DNA from: Haloterrigena gelatinilytica
GTDB taxonomy: Archaea; Halobacteriota; Halobacteria; Halobacteriales; Natrialbaceae
Direction of reading: 5' to 3'
Assembly (NCBI RefSeq): GCF_013342145.1
Contig: NZ_JABUQZ010000001.1
Coordinates: 3,720,001 to 3,784,000, forward strand
DNA: 64,000 bases
The notes beneath the pieces are model-generated. The model was not told the origin of the DNA. It made no database searches and was given only the letters and a program-made list of their open reading frames with translations. Of the stretch, positions 45,201 through 53,227 are shown piece after piece (within the stretch, counting starts at the first letter, position 1; each line of letters opens with the position of its first letter). Made by a program: the position numbers and the translations under genes.

Positions 45201-46916
45201 TCACCCCCCGTCTCCCTCGCCGTCCGCGTCGGTCGTCTTCCCGGCCGCGCGATCCGCCTCGAGCGCGTCCGCGTCGCGCTCGGCGGGATCGCCGTGGCCG
45301 CCCCCGCCGGGCGTTCGGACGGTCACGGTCGTTCCCGCCGCCACGTCGACGGTCGTCTTCGCGGCGACTTCCTCGCCGTCGATCAGGTTCTCGCCGGTCG
45401 CGCCGCTCTCGCCGCCGGCGACGCCCTTTGGCGCGTGACGGCGGCGCTCGGTCAGCAGCGACACCGTCGCCGGCTGCTCGACGGTGACGGTGCGCTCGAG
45501 GCCCAGCCCGCCGCGCTGGCGGCCGCGACCGCCGCTTTCGGGCCGGAGCGCGTAGCGCTCGACCCGGAGCGGATACTCGGTCTCGAGGGACTCGACGGGC
45601 GTGTTCAGGGTGTTGGTCATGCCGACCTGGACGCCGTCCATCCCGTCGCGATCCGCTCGCGCGCCGAAGCCGCCGCCGATCGTCTCGTAGTAGGTGAAGG
45701 AGCCGTCGCGGGCGCCGATGGTCAGGTTGTTCATCGTCCCCTGTCCCTGGGCCGGCACGCGGTCGGGCGCCGCCTCGGCGAACGCGGTGAAGACCACGTC
45801 GGTCACGCGCTGGCTGGTCTCGACGTTGCCGCCGACGACGGCGGCGGGCGACTCGGGGTTCAAGAGCGTCCCTGCGGGCGCGCGGACGTCGACCGGCTCG
45901 TAACAGCCGTGGTTCGGCGGGATCTCGGGATCGGTGATACAGCGGACGACGAAGTAGACCGCGCTCTTCGCGACGGCCAGCGGCGCGTTCAGGTTCCCGT
46001 CGAGTTGGCCGTCGGTGCCCGCGAAGTCGACGTCGATCGTCGCGCCGTCGATCGTGACCGCGACCGTGATCTCGACGTCCTCGTCGGTGACGCCGTCGCC
46101 CTCGAGGACATCGGTCGCCTCGTAGGTGCCGTCCGGAAGCTTCCGGATTTCGTCTTCGATCCGCTCGCGCGAGTAGTCGATGACGGCGTCGAATCCCTCG
46201 AGGACCGTCTCGCGGCCGTGCTCGTCGAACAGCGCGGCGAGGCGTTCCTCGGCGCGCTCGTTGGCCGCCTGCTGGGCCCGGAGGTCGGCGCGGCGCTCGC
46301 CGGGGTTGCGGACGTTCGCGAGCACGAGCGAGCGGACCTCTTCCCGGGGCTCGCCGCCCTCGACGATCCGCGTCGGCGGCAGGCGAAGCCCCTCCTGGTA
46401 GATCTCCTGGGCGCCGGCGGGCATGCTGCCGGGGGTCATCCCGCCGACGTCGGCGTGGTGGGCCCGCGAGACCGCGTAGCCGACGATATCGCTCTCGTCG
46501 CCCGCACCGTCCGCGCCGTCGACGCCGGGCGCGATCGGCGACACCATCGTCACGTCCGGCAGGTGCGTCCCCCCTCGGAAGGGGTCGTTCAGGATGAACA
46601 CGTCGCCGGGTTGGGGGTCGTACTCGAGGACGGCGTCGACGGCCGCGGGCATCGCGCCCAGGTGGACGGGAATGTGCTCGGCCTGCGCGATCATCCGCCC
46701 TTCGGCGTCGAACAGGGCGGTCGAGCAGTCCCGGCGCTCCTTGATGTTCGGCGAGTAGGCGCCGCGGATCAGCGTCTGGCCCATCTCTTCGGCGACGCTC
46801 TCGAGCTGGTTGCGCAGCACCTCGAGGGTCACCGGATCGATGCCGTCGGCGTCCGTCGCGTTCGATTCGTCAGGTTCGGTCGTCGCGTCCGCGGTCTCGT
46901 TGGTATCTGGCGTCAT
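45201..46916 (-). CDS. hyuB: Hydantoinase/oxoprolinase subunit B
   Basis: A 571-residue HyuB. Family blocks are DPVTLEVLRNQLESVAEEMGQ, IKERRDCSTALFDAEGRMIA, DVFILNDPFRGGTHLPDVT and the Gly-rich GGGFGARADRDGMDG with the C-terminal RTPGGGGHGDP. It pairs with HyuA in ATP-dependent opening of cyclic imides such as 5-oxoproline or N-methylhydantoin, or in ketone carboxylation (acetone carboxylase-type). No third small zinc subunit, as found in acetone carboxylase, is nearby, which favours the ring-opening function. The ATG overlaps the stop of hyuA by four bases. Confidence 0.93.
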   Translation of the reverse strand: MTPDTNETADATTEPDESNATDADGIDPVTLEVLRNQLESVAEEMGQTLIRGAYSPNIKERRDCSTALFDAEGRMIAQAEHIPVHLGAMPAAVDAVLEYDPQPGDVFILNDPFRGGTHLPDVTMVSPIAPGVDGADGAGDESDIVGYAVSRAHHADVGGMTPGSMPAGAQEIYQEGLRLPPTRIVEGGEPREEVRSLVLANVRNPGERRADLRAQQAANERAEERLAALFDEHGRETVLEGFDAVIDYSRERIEDEIRKLPDGTYEATDVLEGDGVTDEDVEITVAVTIDGATIDVDFAGTDGQLDGNLNAPLAVAKSAVYFVVRCITDPEIPPNHGCYEPVDVRAPAGTLLNPESPAAVVGGNVETSQRVTDVVFTAFAEAAPDRVPAQGQGTMNNLTIGARDGSFTYYETIGGGFGARADRDGMDGVQVGMTNTLNTPVESLETEYPLRVERYALRPESGGRGRQRGGLGLERTVTVEQPATVSLLTERRRHAPKGVAGGESGATGENLIDGEEVAAKTTVDVAAGTTVTVRTPGGGGHGDPAERDADALEADRAAGKTTDADGEGDGG

Positions 46917-49072
46917 TGGGAATCACCCCCTCGCGTCATGACGAGGGTGCCGTCCGCGAGGATCTCGCCCGCCCAGGTCGGCGGGACGACGGTCGTGCTC
47001 TCGGCCTGCTCGAGGATCGCCGGACCGGAGACCGTCGACCCGGCCGCGAGGCGGTCTCGGTCGTACACCGTCGCCTGCCGCGGCTCGGTGCCGGCGCCGG
47101 GGAAGTGGGCCTCCCGCGTCCCGACGCGCGCGTCGCCCGGCCCCTCGTGGCGGACGGTCGGCTCCGATCCCGGCACGGTCGCCGTCGCGCGGAGGTTGAC
47201 GACCTCGACGGCCTCGTCTAACGCGTAGCCGTACGCGCGCTCGTGGGCCTCGTGGAACCGCTCTGCGACGGTCTCCGCGTCGAACTCCTCGTCGGCGGGG
47301 ACGGTCAGTTCGAAGCTCTGGCCCGCGTAGCGGCAGTCGGCCGCGCGTTCGACCCGCGCCGCGTCGGGGTCGGAGGCGTCGGCGAGGACGTCCGCGACGA
47401 GGTCGTCGTAGACGGCCTCGATATTCGCGGGATCGGCGGTCGCGAGATCCGCGCCCACCGTCCGAACGGCGTCGTAGCTCTCGTCGGCCGCGAGCAGGCC
47501 GAAGGCCGAGAGGACCCCGCCCGGTCGCGGGACGACGACGCGGTCGACCTCGAGCGAGTCGGCCAGCGTCGCGGCGTGCATCGGACCCGCGCCGCCGAAC
47601 GCGACGAGCGCGAACTCGCGGGGGTCGTGACCGCGCTCGACGGTCACCGAGCGGATCGTCCGCGTCATCGTCGCGTTCGCGACGCGGTAGACGCCGCGGG
47701 CCGCCTCGAGCGCGCTCTCGAGACCGGCCTCGTCGGCCAGTCGCTCGAGGGCCTCGCGGGCCGCCTCGACGTCGAGGGTCATCTCGCCGCCCAGCGCGGT
47801 CTCGGGGCCGATGTAGCCCAGCACGACGTTGGCATCGGTGACGGTGGGTTCGGTGCCGCCCTTGCCGTAACAGGCGGGGCCCGGGTCGGCGCCCGAGGAG
47901 CGGGGCCCGACGCGGAGCGCGCCGCCGGCGTCGACCCAGGCGATCGAGCCGCCGCCCGCGCCGACCGTGTTGACGTCGACCATCGGCGTTCGGATCGGGA
48001 GGCCGTCGATCTCGGCGTCGGTCGTCCGCTCCGCGCGGCCGTCCCGGACGAGGCTCACGTCGCTCGAGGTGCCGCCCATGTCGAAGGTGACCAGCCCCTC
48101 GACGTCCTCGTCGTCGACGGTCGCCGCGGCGCCGACGACGCCCGCGGCCGGACCGGAGAGCGTCGTCGTCACGGCGTGGTCCCGAACCGTCTCGGGGTCG
48201 GCGATGCCGCCGTTGGCCTGCATGATCCGCGGCGCCGGCACGCCGGCGTCCTCGGATTCCTCGACCAGCCGACCGACGTAGCGGTCGATCGCGGGCCGCA
48301 CGTAGGCGTCGACGGCCGTCGTCGACGTGCGCTCGAACTCGCGGAACTCCGCGAGCACCTCGTGGGACGCGGAGACGGGGACGTCGAGTTCCTCCCGCAG
48401 CGTCTCGACGACGCGCTCCTCGTTTTCGGGGTCGGCGTAGGCGTGCAGCAGCGAGATCGCGACGGCCTCGACGTCCCGTTCGCGCAGCGTCGCCGCGAGG
48501 TCTCGGACCTCGTCGGGATCGACCGCCTCCTCGACGCCGTCGGCCGTCGTCCGCTCGCTCACTTCGAAGCGCCGCTCTCGGGGCACCAGCGGCTCGGGTT
48601 TCTCGGCCTCGAGGTCGTACAGATCGGGGCGGTCCTGCCGGCCGATCTCGAGGACGTCGCGGAAGCCCGCGGTGGTCACGAGGGCGGTCTTCGCGCCGCC
48701 GCGCTCGAGCAGGGCGTTGACCGAGACGGTCATCGCGTGGGCGAACTCGTCGATCTCGGCGGGGTCGATCCCCGCGTCGTCGCAGGCCTTGCGCAGGCCC
48801 TCGAGGACGCCGACGTGCTGGGGATCGGTCGAGGGTACCTTCGCGGTGACGAGGTCGTCCTCGACCGAGAGAGCGACGTCGGTGAACGTCCCGCCGACGT
48901 CGACGCCGATTCGGGTGGCGCCGTCGGCGGATTCGGAGCTATCGCCGCCACCGTCGCTCGAGGCGGGCGCGCCGCCGTCGGTGCGGAGCGTACGGCGGTC
49001 CGTTTCGGCGGTCGATGCGGTTCGCGTTTCGTCTGCGTTGTCCGTCTTCGGGTTCGAGTTCGTCTCTGTCAT
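46913..49072 (-). CDS. hyuA: Hydantoinase/oxoprolinase subunit A
   Basis: A 719-residue HyuA. The actin-like nucleotide motif is RIGVDVGGTFTDVALS (after an acidic 50-residue N-terminal tail), with VTFDMGGTSSDVSLV as the second phosphate loop. Further blocks are MTVSVNALLERGGAKTALVT, YVRPAIDRYVGRL and LVAFGGAGPMHAATLA. It hydrolyses ATP and works with HyuB. The gene starts four bases after the transporter stop and overlaps hyuB, so all are probably translated from one mRNA. Confidence 0.94.
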   Translation of the reverse strand: MTETNSNPKTDNADETRTASTAETDRRTLRTDGGAPASSDGGGDSSESADGATRIGVDVGGTFTDVALSVEDDLVTAKVPSTDPQHVGVLEGLRKACDDAGIDPAEIDEFAHAMTVSVNALLERGGAKTALVTTAGFRDVLEIGRQDRPDLYDLEAEKPEPLVPRERRFEVSERTTADGVEEAVDPDEVRDLAATLRERDVEAVAISLLHAYADPENEERVVETLREELDVPVSASHEVLAEFREFERTSTTAVDAYVRPAIDRYVGRLVEESEDAGVPAPRIMQANGGIADPETVRDHAVTTTLSGPAAGVVGAAATVDDEDVEGLVTFDMGGTSSDVSLVRDGRAERTTDAEIDGLPIRTPMVDVNTVGAGGGSIAWVDAGGALRVGPRSSGADPGPACYGKGGTEPTVTDANVVLGYIGPETALGGEMTLDVEAAREALERLADEAGLESALEAARGVYRVANATMTRTIRSVTVERGHDPREFALVAFGGAGPMHAATLADSLEVDRVVVPRPGGVLSAFGLLAADESYDAVRTVGADLATADPANIEAVYDDLVADVLADASDPDAARVERAADCRYAGQSFELTVPADEEFDAETVAERFHEAHERAYGYALDEAVEVVNLRATATVPGSEPTVRHEGPGDARVGTREAHFPGAGTEPRQATVYDRDRLAAGSTVSGPAILEQAESTTVVPPTWAGEILADGTLVMTRGGDSQ

Positions 49073-49076
49073 TCGT

Positions 49077-50282
49077 TCAAAGGAGCAAGACGTCGTAGAG
49101 CGTTCGGAGGCCGATACCGATCACGACGACCGCGACGAGTCCGCCCAGCACGTTCTGGAGGGTGCTGTTCGTGTACTCGCCGAGCAGTTCGTCGTTGTTC
49201 ATCGCGTAGATGAGGAAGACCGCGAGGATGGGCAACAGGAGCCCGTTGGCGACCTGCGCGAAGACGATGACCTCGACGGGGTTGTAGTCCAGCGCCGAGA
49301 AGAGGATGCCGATGCCGATGATCGTCAGCCAGATCGCGCGAAAGCGGGTCGATTTGAGGTCGCGCTCCCAGCCGAGCGCGCCGGCGGTGGCGTAGGCGCC
49401 GGCCAGCGGCGCGCTCATCGAACTCGTGAAGCCGGCCGCGAAGAGGCCGATCGCGAAGAACGTCAGCGCGTAGCCGCCGAAGACCGGCTCGAGTTGGTCG
49501 GCCATCTCGCCGACGTCGCTGATCTGGGTTCCCTCGGGGAACACCGCGGCCGCGGTGACGACGATCGCCGTCGTGATGACGCCGCCGACGGCGACCATCG
49601 CGATCGTGTCAGTCCGACACTCCGCGAGGTCCGCGGCGCCGTCCCACCGCTCCTGGACGGTGCTCGCGTGCAGGAACAGATTGTAGCCGACGACGGTGGT
49701 CCCGACGAGACCGGCGATCAGGTACGCCGAGCCCTCGGGGACCGTCGGCACGAGGCCGCCCGCGAGCGCCGTCGGGTCCGGACGGACGATAATCGCGTTG
49801 AGCACGAACGCCAGGCCCATCACGATGACGAGACCGATGAAGACCCGCTCGATCAACTTGTAGCTGCCCGTCCACAGGAGGCCGGCGGCGACCAGCCCCA
49901 TGATCGGGCCCCAAATGTTCTCGCTGATGCCCGTGATCGTCGCCAGGCCGGCGGCGCCGCCGACGATATTGCCGGTCTGGAACGCCGCCGTCCCGATCCC
50001 GATCGCGCTCACGACGAGCGCGATCGTCACGCCCCTCGCGAGCGGGTTCGAGAACTCGTTTCGAAACGCTTCCCCCAGTCCCTCCTTCGTGATCAGGCCG
50101 AGCCGCGCGCTCATCTCCTGGAGCACCATCGTCGCCAGGATCGAGAACGCGATCGTCCACACGAGCAGATACGCGTACTCCGCGCCGATGACGCTCGCGG
50201 TCGTGACGGTTCCCGGTCCGACGAACGCCGCCGCCACCAGCGCTCCGGGCCCGATCGCCTTGAGTCGGTCTACAATGCCCAT
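49077..50282 (-). CDS. Divergent NRAMP-family transporter, lacking the canonical metal motifs
   Basis: A 401-residue polytopic protein of about 11 spans with NRAMP-like layout, started at MGIVDRLKAIGPG. The TM1 motif is GPGTVTT (22–28 region) instead of the usual DPGN. The TM6 motif is VGYNLFLHA instead of MPHNIYLH; only the Asn and LH remain. Loss of the metal ligands suggests it does not carry divalent metal in the usual way. B. subtilis YcsG, an NRAMP relative, is encoded with the 5-oxoprolinase genes, so this protein may import the cyclic substrate of HyuAB. Confidence 0.8.
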   Translation of the reverse strand: MGIVDRLKAIGPGALVAAAFVGPGTVTTASVIGAEYAYLLVWTIAFSILATMVLQEMSARLGLITKEGLGEAFRNEFSNPLARGVTIALVVSAIGIGTAAFQTGNIVGGAAGLATITGISENIWGPIMGLVAAGLLWTGSYKLIERVFIGLVIVMGLAFVLNAIIVRPDPTALAGGLVPTVPEGSAYLIAGLVGTTVVGYNLFLHASTVQERWDGAADLAECRTDTIAMVAVGGVITTAIVVTAAAVFPEGTQISDVGEMADQLEPVFGGYALTFFAIGLFAAGFTSSMSAPLAGAYATAGALGWERDLKSTRFRAIWLTIIGIGILFSALDYNPVEVIVFAQVANGLLLPILAVFLIYAMNNDELLGEYTNSTLQNVLGGLVAVVVIGIGLRTLYDVLLL

Positions 50283-50490
50283 GATACGTGTACACATATG
50301 ACCCTCGGCGAGAGGACCAAAATGGTTGTTAAGAATCGCACACACGAGCCGACGACTCGCTCGACCCCGTTCGACCATCGTATGAAATCGTATGAAGCCG
50401 TTCGATCGATGTTCGAATCCGCCGTTCGGTGCCCGAACGCGAAGGGAAGAGGGAACACGACTGCAACTCGTTCGCCGAGGCCGCTGAACC

Positions 50491-51135: not shown

Positions 51136-51651
51136 TCAGCCGGTCCGTTCTTCGACCGCGAGCGAGCCGTCCTCGACGGTCGCGACGAGCATCGTCGCGC
51201 GGTCGGCGGGGCTGGCGCCGGTCGCGCTCCCGGGATTGAGTACCCGAACGCCGTCGACCGTCGTATCGACCACCTCGTGGGTGTGGCCGGCGACGGCGAC
51301 GGGGTCCTGGTCTCCGTCTCTTTCGCTTCGAGCGGTCTCGACGACGCGCTCGTGCCAGCCGCGCGGCGACCCGGTGCCGTGGGTGACGACGAACGTCACG
51401 CCGTCGACTGCGAGGGTCGCCGTCGTCGGGACGTCGATCGTCGCGGGATCGGTGTTGCCGCGGACGGCCGTCAGGTTCGCGGGGCCGCCCGCGAGGTCGA
51501 CCAGCCGCTCGTAGGCCTCGTTCGAGTCGAAATCCCCCGCGTGGATCGCGTGGTCGGCGCGCTCGATCTCGTCGACGACCCAGTCGGGGATCGATCGCTC
51601 TCGAGTGGGGACGTGCGTATCGGAGACGATCGCGACGCGTGACCGTGCCAT
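51136..51651 (-). CDS. Metallophosphoesterase (YfcE/MJ0936-like)
   Basis: A 171-residue calcineurin-like phosphoesterase. Metal-binding motifs in order are SDTHVP (9–14), HAGDFDS, VRGNTDP, THGTG and AGHTHEV, the full set for a two-metal site. The family hydrolyses phosphodiesters or phosphomonoesters; MJ0936 and YfcE are close relatives. Start at the ATG at 51651, 61 bases from the divergent Nudix fusion gene, which could share its regulation. Confidence 0.9.
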   Translation of the reverse strand: MARSRVAIVSDTHVPTRERSIPDWVVDEIERADHAIHAGDFDSNEAYERLVDLAGGPANLTAVRGNTDPATIDVPTTATLAVDGVTFVVTHGTGSPRGWHERVVETARSERDGDQDPVAVAGHTHEVVDTTVDGVRVLNPGSATGASPADRATMLVATVEDGSLAVEERTG

Positions 51652-51712: not shown

Positions 51713-53227
51713 ATGAGCGAGTTACCGGGCTCCGGGCGCGATCGCGACGGCGACGAGTCCGCCAGCGACGAATCGGACGTAGCGCACGTCGTCACCGCCT
51801 TCCTGCGAAACCGGGGCGACGTCCTGCTGTTGCGACGCAGCGACGCCGTCGGGACGTATCGGGGCCAATGGGGCGGCGTGTCGGGGTTCGCGGAGGGGCA
51901 ACCGGACGAGCAGGTTCTCATCGAAATCCGCGAGGAGACCGGCCTCGAGGCCGCCGACGTCTCGCTCGTCCGGTCCGGACGCCCCGTCGAGTTCGAAGAC
52001 GCCGACCTCGGACGCGAGTGGGTCGTCCACCCGTACCTGTTCGACTGCGAGACCCGCGAGATCGAACTGAGCGAGGAACACGACGCCGTCGAGTGGGTTG
52101 CCCCGACGGCGATGCTCGACCTCGAGTCCGGGCTGGACGCCGAGAACGCGCACGAGACCGCCGCTGGAGACGAAATCGACGTGACGGTCCCCGAACTCTG
52201 GACCGCCTACGAGCGCGTCGCGCCGACCGTCCGCTCGATCGCGGCCGACGACGAACACGGCGCCGCCTCGCTGTCGATCCGCGCGCTCGAGGTGCTGCGC
52301 GATCGGGCGGGACTGCTCGTCGCCGAGCGTGGCGAGGCGACGTCGTCGCCTCGGGACGACGAACGGGGAACCCGTGAGTCCGACGCCGATCCCGAGGGCG
52401 AGTGGGACGAACTCGCCGAACTCGCCGGTCGGTTGCTCGAGGCGCGCCCCTCGATGGCCGTTCTTCGGAACCGGATCAACCGGGTGATGGCCGAGGCGAC
52501 CGACGGCGCAGAGGGTGACGACGCCGCTGCCGGTGCGCCCCGCGTCCTCGAGTCGGCGCTGTCGAACGTCGACCGCGCGCTGGCGGCCGACGAAGACGCC
52601 GCGGCGAACGCCGGCGAGCGGATCGACGGCTCCGTCATGACGCTCTCGCGGTCCGGGACCGTCTTCGAGGCGCTCCGCGACGGCGACCCGTCCCGCGTGT
52701 TCGTCGCCGAGTCCCGGCCGGCCCGGGAAGGGCTCGACGTGGCCGAAGCGCTGGCCGCGAGCGACGACGTCGACTGCCCCGTAGCGGTCCACACCGACGC
52801 GGCAGCGGCGCACGTCCTCTCGAGCGAGGGCGTCGACCGCGTCGTCGTCGGCGCCGACACGGTGCTCCCCGACGGTGCCGTCGTGAACAAGACCGGCACC
52901 CGCGGGCTGGCGATCGCCGCCGCCCGCGAGGACGTGCCGGTCTCGGTCGTGGCCGCCACCGACAAGGTCTCGACGCGCGAGGGCGTGAACCTCGAGTCCG
53001 GCGATCGATCGGCGGTCTACGACGGCGAGGCGGCGGTCGACGTGCTGAACCCGACCTTCGACGTGACGCCCGCCGACTGCGTCGACGAGATCGTCACCGA
53101 GCGCGGCGCGCTCGAGGCGGCGGACGTCGGGGACGTGGTCGAAGAGTTGCGAGGGCTCGAGACGTGGCGAACCGATAGCGAGTTGACGGGCCGAGAAACG
53201 ACAGACCGAAACCTTTCGAGGGAGTAG
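51713..53227 (+). CDS. Nudix–eIF2B/ribose-1,5-bisphosphate-isomerase-like fusion
   Basis: A 504-residue fusion. Residues about 20–160 are a Nudix domain; the box GFAEGQPDEQVLIEIREETGL keeps the EETG core, but Ile replaces the first Arg and the spacing deviates. Residues about 225–490 are an eIF2B-alpha/R15P-isomerase-like domain, with GADTVLPDGAVVNKTGTRGL near the catalytic Asp. The linker is acidic. A role in nucleotide or ribose-phosphate metabolism is plausible: R15P isomerase acts in archaeal AMP degradation. ATG 51713 is chosen over 51650, which would overlap the divergent gene. Confidence 0.85.
   Translation: MSELPGSGRDRDGDESASDESDVAHVVTAFLRNRGDVLLLRRSDAVGTYRGQWGGVSGFAEGQPDEQVLIEIREETGLEAADVSLVRSGRPVEFEDADLGREWVVHPYLFDCETREIELSEEHDAVEWVAPTAMLDLESGLDAENAHETAAGDEIDVTVPELWTAYERVAPTVRSIAADDEHGAASLSIRALEVLRDRAGLLVAERGEATSSPRDDERGTRESDADPEGEWDELAELAGRLLEARPSMAVLRNRINRVMAEATDGAEGDDAAAGAPRVLESALSNVDRALAADEDAAANAGERIDGSVMTLSRSGTVFEALRDGDPSRVFVAESRPAREGLDVAEALAASDDVDCPVAVHTDAAAAHVLSSEGVDRVVVGADTVLPDGAVVNKTGTRGLAIAAAREDVPVSVVAATDKVSTREGVNLESGDRSAVYDGEAAVDVLNPTFDVTPADCVDEIVTERGALEAADVGDVVEELRGLETWRTDSELTGRETTDRNLSRE

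Follow-up and report, generated by a model that had tools for sequence, protein, structure and literature searches.

In the ribose-1,5-bisphosphate isomerase (R15Pi) of P. horikoshii, the 1-phosphate is contacted by Arg22, Arg65, Gln166, Lys215 and the backbone of Gly23, the 5-phosphate by Ser137, Lys240 and backbone atoms, and the sugar by Asp204, Asn214 and Lys215, with Cys135 and Asp204 as the catalytic pair, and an engineered C135S enzyme is described as inactive yet still holding ribose-1,5-bisphosphate (R15P) (PMC5789824). The same IF-2B fold occurs in methylthioribose-1-phosphate isomerase (MtnA) and in the alpha subunit of eukaryotic eIF2B, which has the isomerase fold without the catalytic Cys and is described as binding sugar phosphates (PMC8187479), while no partner subunits of the eIF2B GEF kind are given as known in archaea (PMC8576121).

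A Nudix domain joined to a domain of this type is already annotated in haloarchaea, where HVO_1934 of H. volcanii is listed as a 43.2 kDa NUDIX family hydrolase/eIF-2B domain protein, aIF2Bsu (PMC8576121), and was earlier studied as a putative initiation factor. The HVO_1934 single deletion is reported as wild-type-like in 12 conditions, and the HVO_1934/HVO_2706 double deletion as readily obtained and viable, with growth that the text calls indistinguishable from wild type, whereas the Figure 6 legend speaks of conditions with differences in panel A (PMC3828320). In H. volcanii, a network study records one or two interactions each for two aIF2B-like proteins, HVO_1934 among them, and its Section 15 argues against a heteromeric aIF2B complex (PMC8576121). 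Given this annotation together with the deletion and network results, the architecture is a known one and a role in translation is doubtful; what has been published on H. volcanii speaks against an important function of HVO_1934 in initiation. Sharing the annotated two-domain architecture, HVO_1934 is inferred to be the counterpart of the protein described here, and those parts of both papers (PMC8576121, PMC3828320) that deal with it carry no discussion of the Ser/Glu pocket reported below.

Results

We evaluated an ORF in a 64,000-nucleotide stretch of the Haloterrigena gelatinilytica genome (hereafter the window; NZ_JABUQZ010000001.1, positions 3,720,001 to 3,784,000) that a preliminary description had read as a Nudix domain fused to an eIF2B/isomerase-type domain. 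Both Pfam domains score above their cut-offs within the single ORF (Table 1), whose open frame extends from 51605, upstream of the start taken. The preliminary description had itself raised an assembly artefact as a source of the fusion, and this can be ruled out because the architecture is shared by 132 distinct sequences, drawn from 160 loci with a score of at least 430 against a fusion profile (some genomes are present twice, hence 160 loci and 132 distinct cores). Excluded from these 132 rows were 16 loci scoring below 430 (L001, L002, L071-L075 and L158-L166). Three of them, L071-L073, come from haloarchaea and are either truncated or lack the Nudix part, yet still have the Ser/Glu/Asp set of the pocket.

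Table 1. Coordinates of the fusion ORF, its parts and its divergent neighbour in the window
Feature	Position	Strand	Details
YfcE-family phosphodiesterase, divergent upstream neighbour	51136..51651	-	PF12850; TIGR00040 above cut-off
Nudix/IF-2B fusion ORF	51713..53227	+	504 aa plus stop; no internal stops on translation; start predicted
NUDIX domain (PF00293)	51791..52123	+	residues 27-137; Pfam E 2.1e-10, 41.2 bits, above gathering cut-off of 21.1
Nudix box region	51875..51946	+	residues 55-78; metal-site Glu71, Glu74 and Glu75 present; Ile70 in place of Arg
Acidic linker, variable	52121..52183	+	about residues 137-157, from alignments; low pLDDT at 147-151
Connector TVPxLWxAYERVAPT, conserved	52184..52228	+	residues 158-172; conserved columns 158-160, 162, 163, 166, 169, 171
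IF-2B domain (PF01008; eIF2B / sugar-phosphate isomerase type)	52256..53116	+	residues 182-468; Pfam E 5.1e-47, 160.9 bits, above gathering cut-off of 22.4
His182	52256..52258	+	position of R15Pi 1-phosphate contact Arg22; His 123/132, Arg 7, Ala 1, Gln 1
Ser312	52646..52648	+	position of R15Pi catalytic Cys135 (Tk Cys133); Ser 132/132
Glu339	52727..52729	+	position of R15Pi 1-phosphate contact Gln166; Glu 132/132
GADTVLPDGAVVNKTGT motif	52850..52900	+	residues 380-396; holds Asp382, Asn392, Lys393, each 132/132
Lys418	52964..52966	+	position of R15Pi 5-phosphate contact Lys240; Lys 131/132

Between the domains, the linker is acidic in this protein, as first described, and is variable across the family, where the conserved part is instead the TVPxLWxAYERVAP stretch directly after it. 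In one alignment, 60 of 64 rows have gaps at columns 137-144 of the linker, while in another 62 of 132 rows hold at least four letters there, and we regard the alignment of the linker across the fusion family as uncertain. The C-terminal motif of eIF2B-related sugar isomerases, also named in the preliminary description, is in place (Table 1). An AlphaFold2 model built from 57 aligned sequences (mean pLDDT 90.3, pTM 0.90) places the IF-2B part closest to R15Pi, with 5yfx as the best structural match (Z 32.7, 295 aligned, rmsd 2.7) and 3vm6 and 5yfs behind it (both Z 32.5), and structure comparison finds this fold in common with eIF2B alpha, beta and delta. For the Nudix part, 2fkb (YfcD; Z 15.9) and 3grn (Z 15.6) are tied.

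The Nudix half departs from the canonical box GX5EX7REUXEEXGU much as the preliminary description had seen, with EETG but with Ile70 instead of Arg before the first Glu and with a shortened Gly-to-Glu spacing. Arg stands at column 70 in 24 of the 132 distinct rows and is missing from 108. The metal-site Glu residues of REUXEE are kept in 123 (Glu71), 126 (Glu74) and 123 (Glu75) of the 132 rows, and all three together in 120, a result at odds with a family-wide loss of catalytic residues in this half, which had been entertained at the outset. Several solved Nudix hydrolases are reported to have altered boxes (PMC5389931), and the missing Arg therefore does not mean that activity is lost. The domain thus matches MutT/NudI/YfcD-type hydrolases in fold (2fkb, 3grn) and differs from them in its box and in its lack of a curated subfamily: no NCBIfam Nudix family reached its cut-off, which makes the substrate a guess, and BLASTP against E. 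coli YfcD gave only E 0.093.

Mapping the R15Pi contacts onto the fusion by alignments, with the R15Pi of the same genome (L001) as reference, we found a pocket that is partly kept and partly altered. That R15Pi and two further haloarchaeal ones (L074, L075) read R-R-C-S-Q-D-N-K-K at positions 182, 245, 312, 314, 339, 382, 392, 393 and 418. In the fusions, Ser314 (R15Pi Ser137), Asp382 (catalytic Asp204/202), Asn392 (Asn214) and Lys393 (Lys215) are each present in 132/132, Arg245 (Arg65) in 129/132 with Lys in 3, and Met248 and Arg254 are each found in 132/132 distinct rows. The 1-phosphate contacts Arg22, Arg65, Gln166 and Lys215 become His, Arg, Glu and Lys, so that two of the four are kept in this protein. 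Relative to R15Pi (PDB 5yfj, 5yfs, 3vm6), the fusion therefore shares the fold, the catalytic Asp and the ribose and 5-phosphate contacts, and differs in having Ser for Cys, Glu for Gln166, mostly His for Arg22 and an added Nudix domain. The preliminary description had asked after the catalytic residues of the isomerase half, and the answer is divided: the Cys is replaced by Ser in every fusion row and the Asp is retained in every one. MtnA rows L158 and L159, which share the IF-2B fold, have the catalytic Cys and Gln, and eIF2B alpha, which is without a Nudix domain, does not fully share the Asp and Lys kept in the fusion. A third pocket variant, H-N-D-S-I-D-N-R-K at the same nine positions, is seen in an HVO_2706-like IF-2B paralogue of the same genome (L002, 1402-2310), where Asp takes the place of the catalytic Cys, Ile that of the Gln and Arg that of Lys393.

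Against family models, the fusion scores 114.1 against a cut-off of 314.1 for TIGR00511 (R15Pi), 85 against 279 for TIGR00512 (MtnA), and 69.4 against 249 and 64.9 against 339 for the archaeal aIF2B subunit models PRK06372 and PRK08335, whereas a true R15Pi is encoded elsewhere in the genome (453.7-454.1 bits). The earlier view of the second domain as ribose-phosphate isomerase-type thus stands for the related fold, the kept Asp and the ribose/5-phosphate contacts, and falls for the catalytic Cys, which is Ser, and for TIGR00511. Because engineered C135S is inactive yet holds R15P, the natural Ser312 is predicted to have lost the classic reaction and to have kept binding. The fusion protein is probably not the known isomerase, and its second domain is probably a partner that converts or senses another phosphorylated sugar.

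Seeking relatives beyond Halobacteria, we found the complete fusion in two gammaproteobacterial MAGs (L150 3112-4377, L152 5968-7245; 43-44% identity). Genes around the L150 fusion are bacterial (MOSC, Fe-ADH, GAF/GGDEF/EAL, AhpC/TSA, Usp, sulfur transport), and the L150 and L152 contigs have a G+C of 57% and 55% versus 67% for the window; these cases possibly reflect transfer between archaea and bacteria. In a 369-genome sample of the class to which these MAGs belong, matches at E 1e-40 came from 8 genomes. One is the seed genome, and the other 7 have a free-standing IF-2B gene; in all 7, Ser312, Glu339 and Asp382 are present, while position 182 is His in 4 and Ser, Ser and Asn in the other 3. 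Upstream of the IF-2B gene, and on its strand, 4 of these 7 loci have a Nudix gene that matches the Nudix domain of the haloarchaeal fusion (E 3.3e-38 to 1.1e-36). The Nudix stop and the IF-2B start overlap by 8, 11 and 8 bases in three pairs, and a gap of 623 bases separates the genes of the fourth; around the other 3, no Nudix gene was found within the stretches examined. The IF-2B domains of two overlapping pairs are 92% identical, so that the three represent fewer independent cases. With 3 of 7 genes lacking a Nudix neighbour, one gap of 623 bases and no Nudix match in the haloarchaeal L072 and L073, the partnership is not obligatory.

A phylum search with the bacterial alignment (398 genomes, E 1e-35) gave 9 matches: the seed fusion, L185, L186 and six Cys-bearing MtnA-like sequences (L187-L192). 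L185 (1495-2295) and L186 (1498-2298) are divergent bacterial IF-2B variants with the motifs THSASSV, SSPG(F/M)EG and GCDT, and sit beside the free-standing Ser/Glu forms on a long branch. In a 40-row tree, the fusions (98/98) and the free-standing bacterial forms (100/99) are separated by a branch with 98/88 from R15Pi, MtnA and the HVO_2706-like L002. The tree fits one origin of the Ser/Glu signature; we are unsure of the place of the HVO_2706-like row, which has a long branch. In the open-licence literature, we found no paper on the Ser/Glu pocket or on the bacterial Nudix/IF-2B gene pair.

Within Halobacteria, the C-terminal domain of the family is present in 114 of 145 sampled genomes (best E 2.2e-35 or lower) and, at a threshold of E 1e-35, absent from 31 (best E 2.0e-27 or weaker, or none). 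A named-genome scan, in which the best 80 of 286 loci were kept, includes Haloterrigena, Natrinema, Natronorubrum, Haladaptatus, Halorussus, Halococcus and others, and with the best 80 of 286 relatives kept, the bacterial spread is a lower bound. Outside the order, no fusion occurs among the 20 matches listed for a 148-genome phylum sample, all of which cover the C-terminal part only (query from 125 on). Calling the fusion at E 2.2e-35 or lower and R15Pi above its cut-off, with presence lists compiled by hand, we counted 69 genomes with both, 45 with the fusion only, 25 with R15Pi only and 6 with neither (Fisher p 0.055, odds ratio 0.37), an association that is, if anything, negative. A tie of the fusion to the R15Pi pathway by co-occurrence is thereby rejected or at least weakened; the lack of a positive association speaks against a shared R15P pathway and says nothing direct for ADP-ribose.

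Of 119 loci longer than 8.5 kb, 57 (56 of 116 distinct) have a YfcE-family gene in divergent orientation upstream of the fusion. YfcE-like genes also adjoin L072 and L073, the two halobacterial members that have no Nudix match and keep the Ser/Glu/Asp set. E. coli K-12 has yfcE next to the Nudix gene yfcD, a parallel with the fusion that the Nudix sequence comparison does not support. A hydantoinase A gene and, after it, a gene for an Nramp-type transporter (46913-50378 of the window, minus strand) are ordinary neighbours.

Discussion

ADP-ribose pyrophosphatases convert ADP-ribose to AMP and ribose-5-phosphate. On our best reading, the fusion is not the canonical R15P isomerase, and it is not a factor of translation initiation either. 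In the mechanism we propose, a metal-dependent Nudix domain would hydrolyse a nucleoside-diphosphate-linked substrate and release a 5-phosphorylated pentose without a C1 phosphate, in the simplest case as those pyrophosphatases do, and the IF-2B domain would bind this product through the kept ribose and 5-phosphate residues Ser314, Asp382, Asn392, Lys393 and Lys418. It might then convert the product, for example by an aldose-ketose isomerisation that yields ribulose-5-phosphate and in which Glu339 and Asp382 serve as base and acid, or read it allosterically. That the genes overlap in bacteria and are fused in archaea suggests a connection between the Nudix product and the IF-2B ligand, and the kept ribose/5-phosphate contacts beside an altered 1-phosphate subsite (Arg to His182, Gln to Glu339) suggest a 5-phosphopentose lacking the C1 phosphate. 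Against this view of the subsite, His182 is not fixed (Arg in 7/132 fusions; Ser, Ser and Asn in 3/7 bacterial forms), and a bisphosphate ligand is still conceivable because Arg245 (129/132) and Lys393 (132/132) remain; against the mechanism as a whole, cells lacking HVO_1934 showed no phenotype under the conditions that PMC3828320 describes. Weighing these points, we lean slightly towards a Nudix domain partnered with a non-R15Pi domain that binds 5-phosphopentose, and hold evenly balanced the fuller proposal that a Nudix hydrolase acts in cis with a modified eIF2B/R15Pi-fold domain on a 5-phosphopentose that is then converted or sensed. That the IF-2B domain converts its ligand, as opposed to sensing it, seems rather doubtful to us, and ADP-ribose as the Nudix substrate is a tentative suggestion that we expect to fail sooner than to hold; breakdown of NAD or ADP-ribose, as the preliminary description had envisaged, is a possible role.

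The strongest competitor, which we nonetheless judge unlikely, is a sugar-phosphate sensor in which an IF-2B domain devoid of catalysis would bind a sugar phosphate and regulate the Nudix domain or a partner. The catalytic Cys is gone and the binding residues are retained, and in eIF2B alpha sugar phosphates are described as sitting in the ancestral catalytic pocket, with no isomerase chemistry, and activating eIF2B (PMC8187479), and the fusion may likewise be a sensor without isomerase catalysis; however, Glu339 and Ser312 are invariant in 132/132 fusions and in 7/7 bacterial forms, stricter than binding alone seems to need, and the small number of HVO_1934 interactions recorded in PMC8576121 also counts against a sensor. 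An initiation factor 2B subunit, by comparison, is very improbable. The fold common to eIF2B alpha, beta and delta and the one-way co-isolation of HVO_1934, treated as aIF2Bsu, with an RNA polymerase subunit would agree with it, but the viable H. volcanii mutants (PMC3828320), the network study's case against a heteromeric complex (PMC8576121) and the 31 of 145 Halobacteria genomes without the family domain at E 1e-35 do not. The Ser/Glu signature is also found in bacteria. To our knowledge, bacteria have no aIF2.

The two readings that keep R15P chemistry fare no better. Nudix PRPP pyrophosphatases that make R15P were reportedly described by Fisher and colleagues in 2002, and a PRPP shunt, with the Nudix domain making R15P from PRPP and the second domain turning it into ribulose-1,5-bisphosphate, would be in keeping with the remaining Arg245 and Lys393 of the 1-phosphate subsite. 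That subsite is altered, which rejects or at least weakens the PRPP to R15P idea, and with Ser for Cys and Glu for Gln in 132/132, an inactive engineered C135S (PMC5789824) and R15Pi as a separate gene in the same genome, we find the shunt improbable. A canonical R15Pi carrying an extra Nudix domain would account for the R15Pi entries as best structural matches and for the kept catalytic Asp, but hardly for a catalytic Cys that is absent or a true R15Pi elsewhere in the genome; falling short of the TIGR00511 cut-off and having Ser for Cys, the protein has this identity rejected or weakened, and we give it scarcely any weight.

Returning to a Nudix domain paired with a modified IF-2B pocket, a bolder form would be a distinct two-part enzyme or sensor family, encoded by overlapping Nudix and IF-2B genes in some Gammaproteobacteria and by one fused gene in Halobacteria and in two MAGs of Gammaproteobacteria. 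Its Ser/Glu pocket might carry out a reaction new to the eIF2B/R15Pi fold, e.g., a Glu-based isomerisation in which the substrate is a free 5-phosphopentose that the Nudix partner has released; taken whole, we think this more probably wrong than right. Worth following up are the Ser/Glu pocket and the paired genes in bacteria; the canonical isomerase reading fails on the catalytic Cys. Our results also bear on the mislabelled aIF2B subunits of archaea: HVO_1934 was taken for an initiation factor in deletion and pull-down work, whereas the findings presented here point to metabolite binding. The eIF2B/R15Pi fold is shared by isomerases of metabolism and by the sugar-phosphate-sensing core of eIF2B, a stress regulator of eukaryotes. 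A conserved branch with Ser for the catalytic Cys and Glu for a phosphate-binding Gln, tied to a Nudix hydrolase in both archaea and bacteria, would mean either that the fold has acquired a new chemistry or that an enzyme pocket has independently become a sensor.
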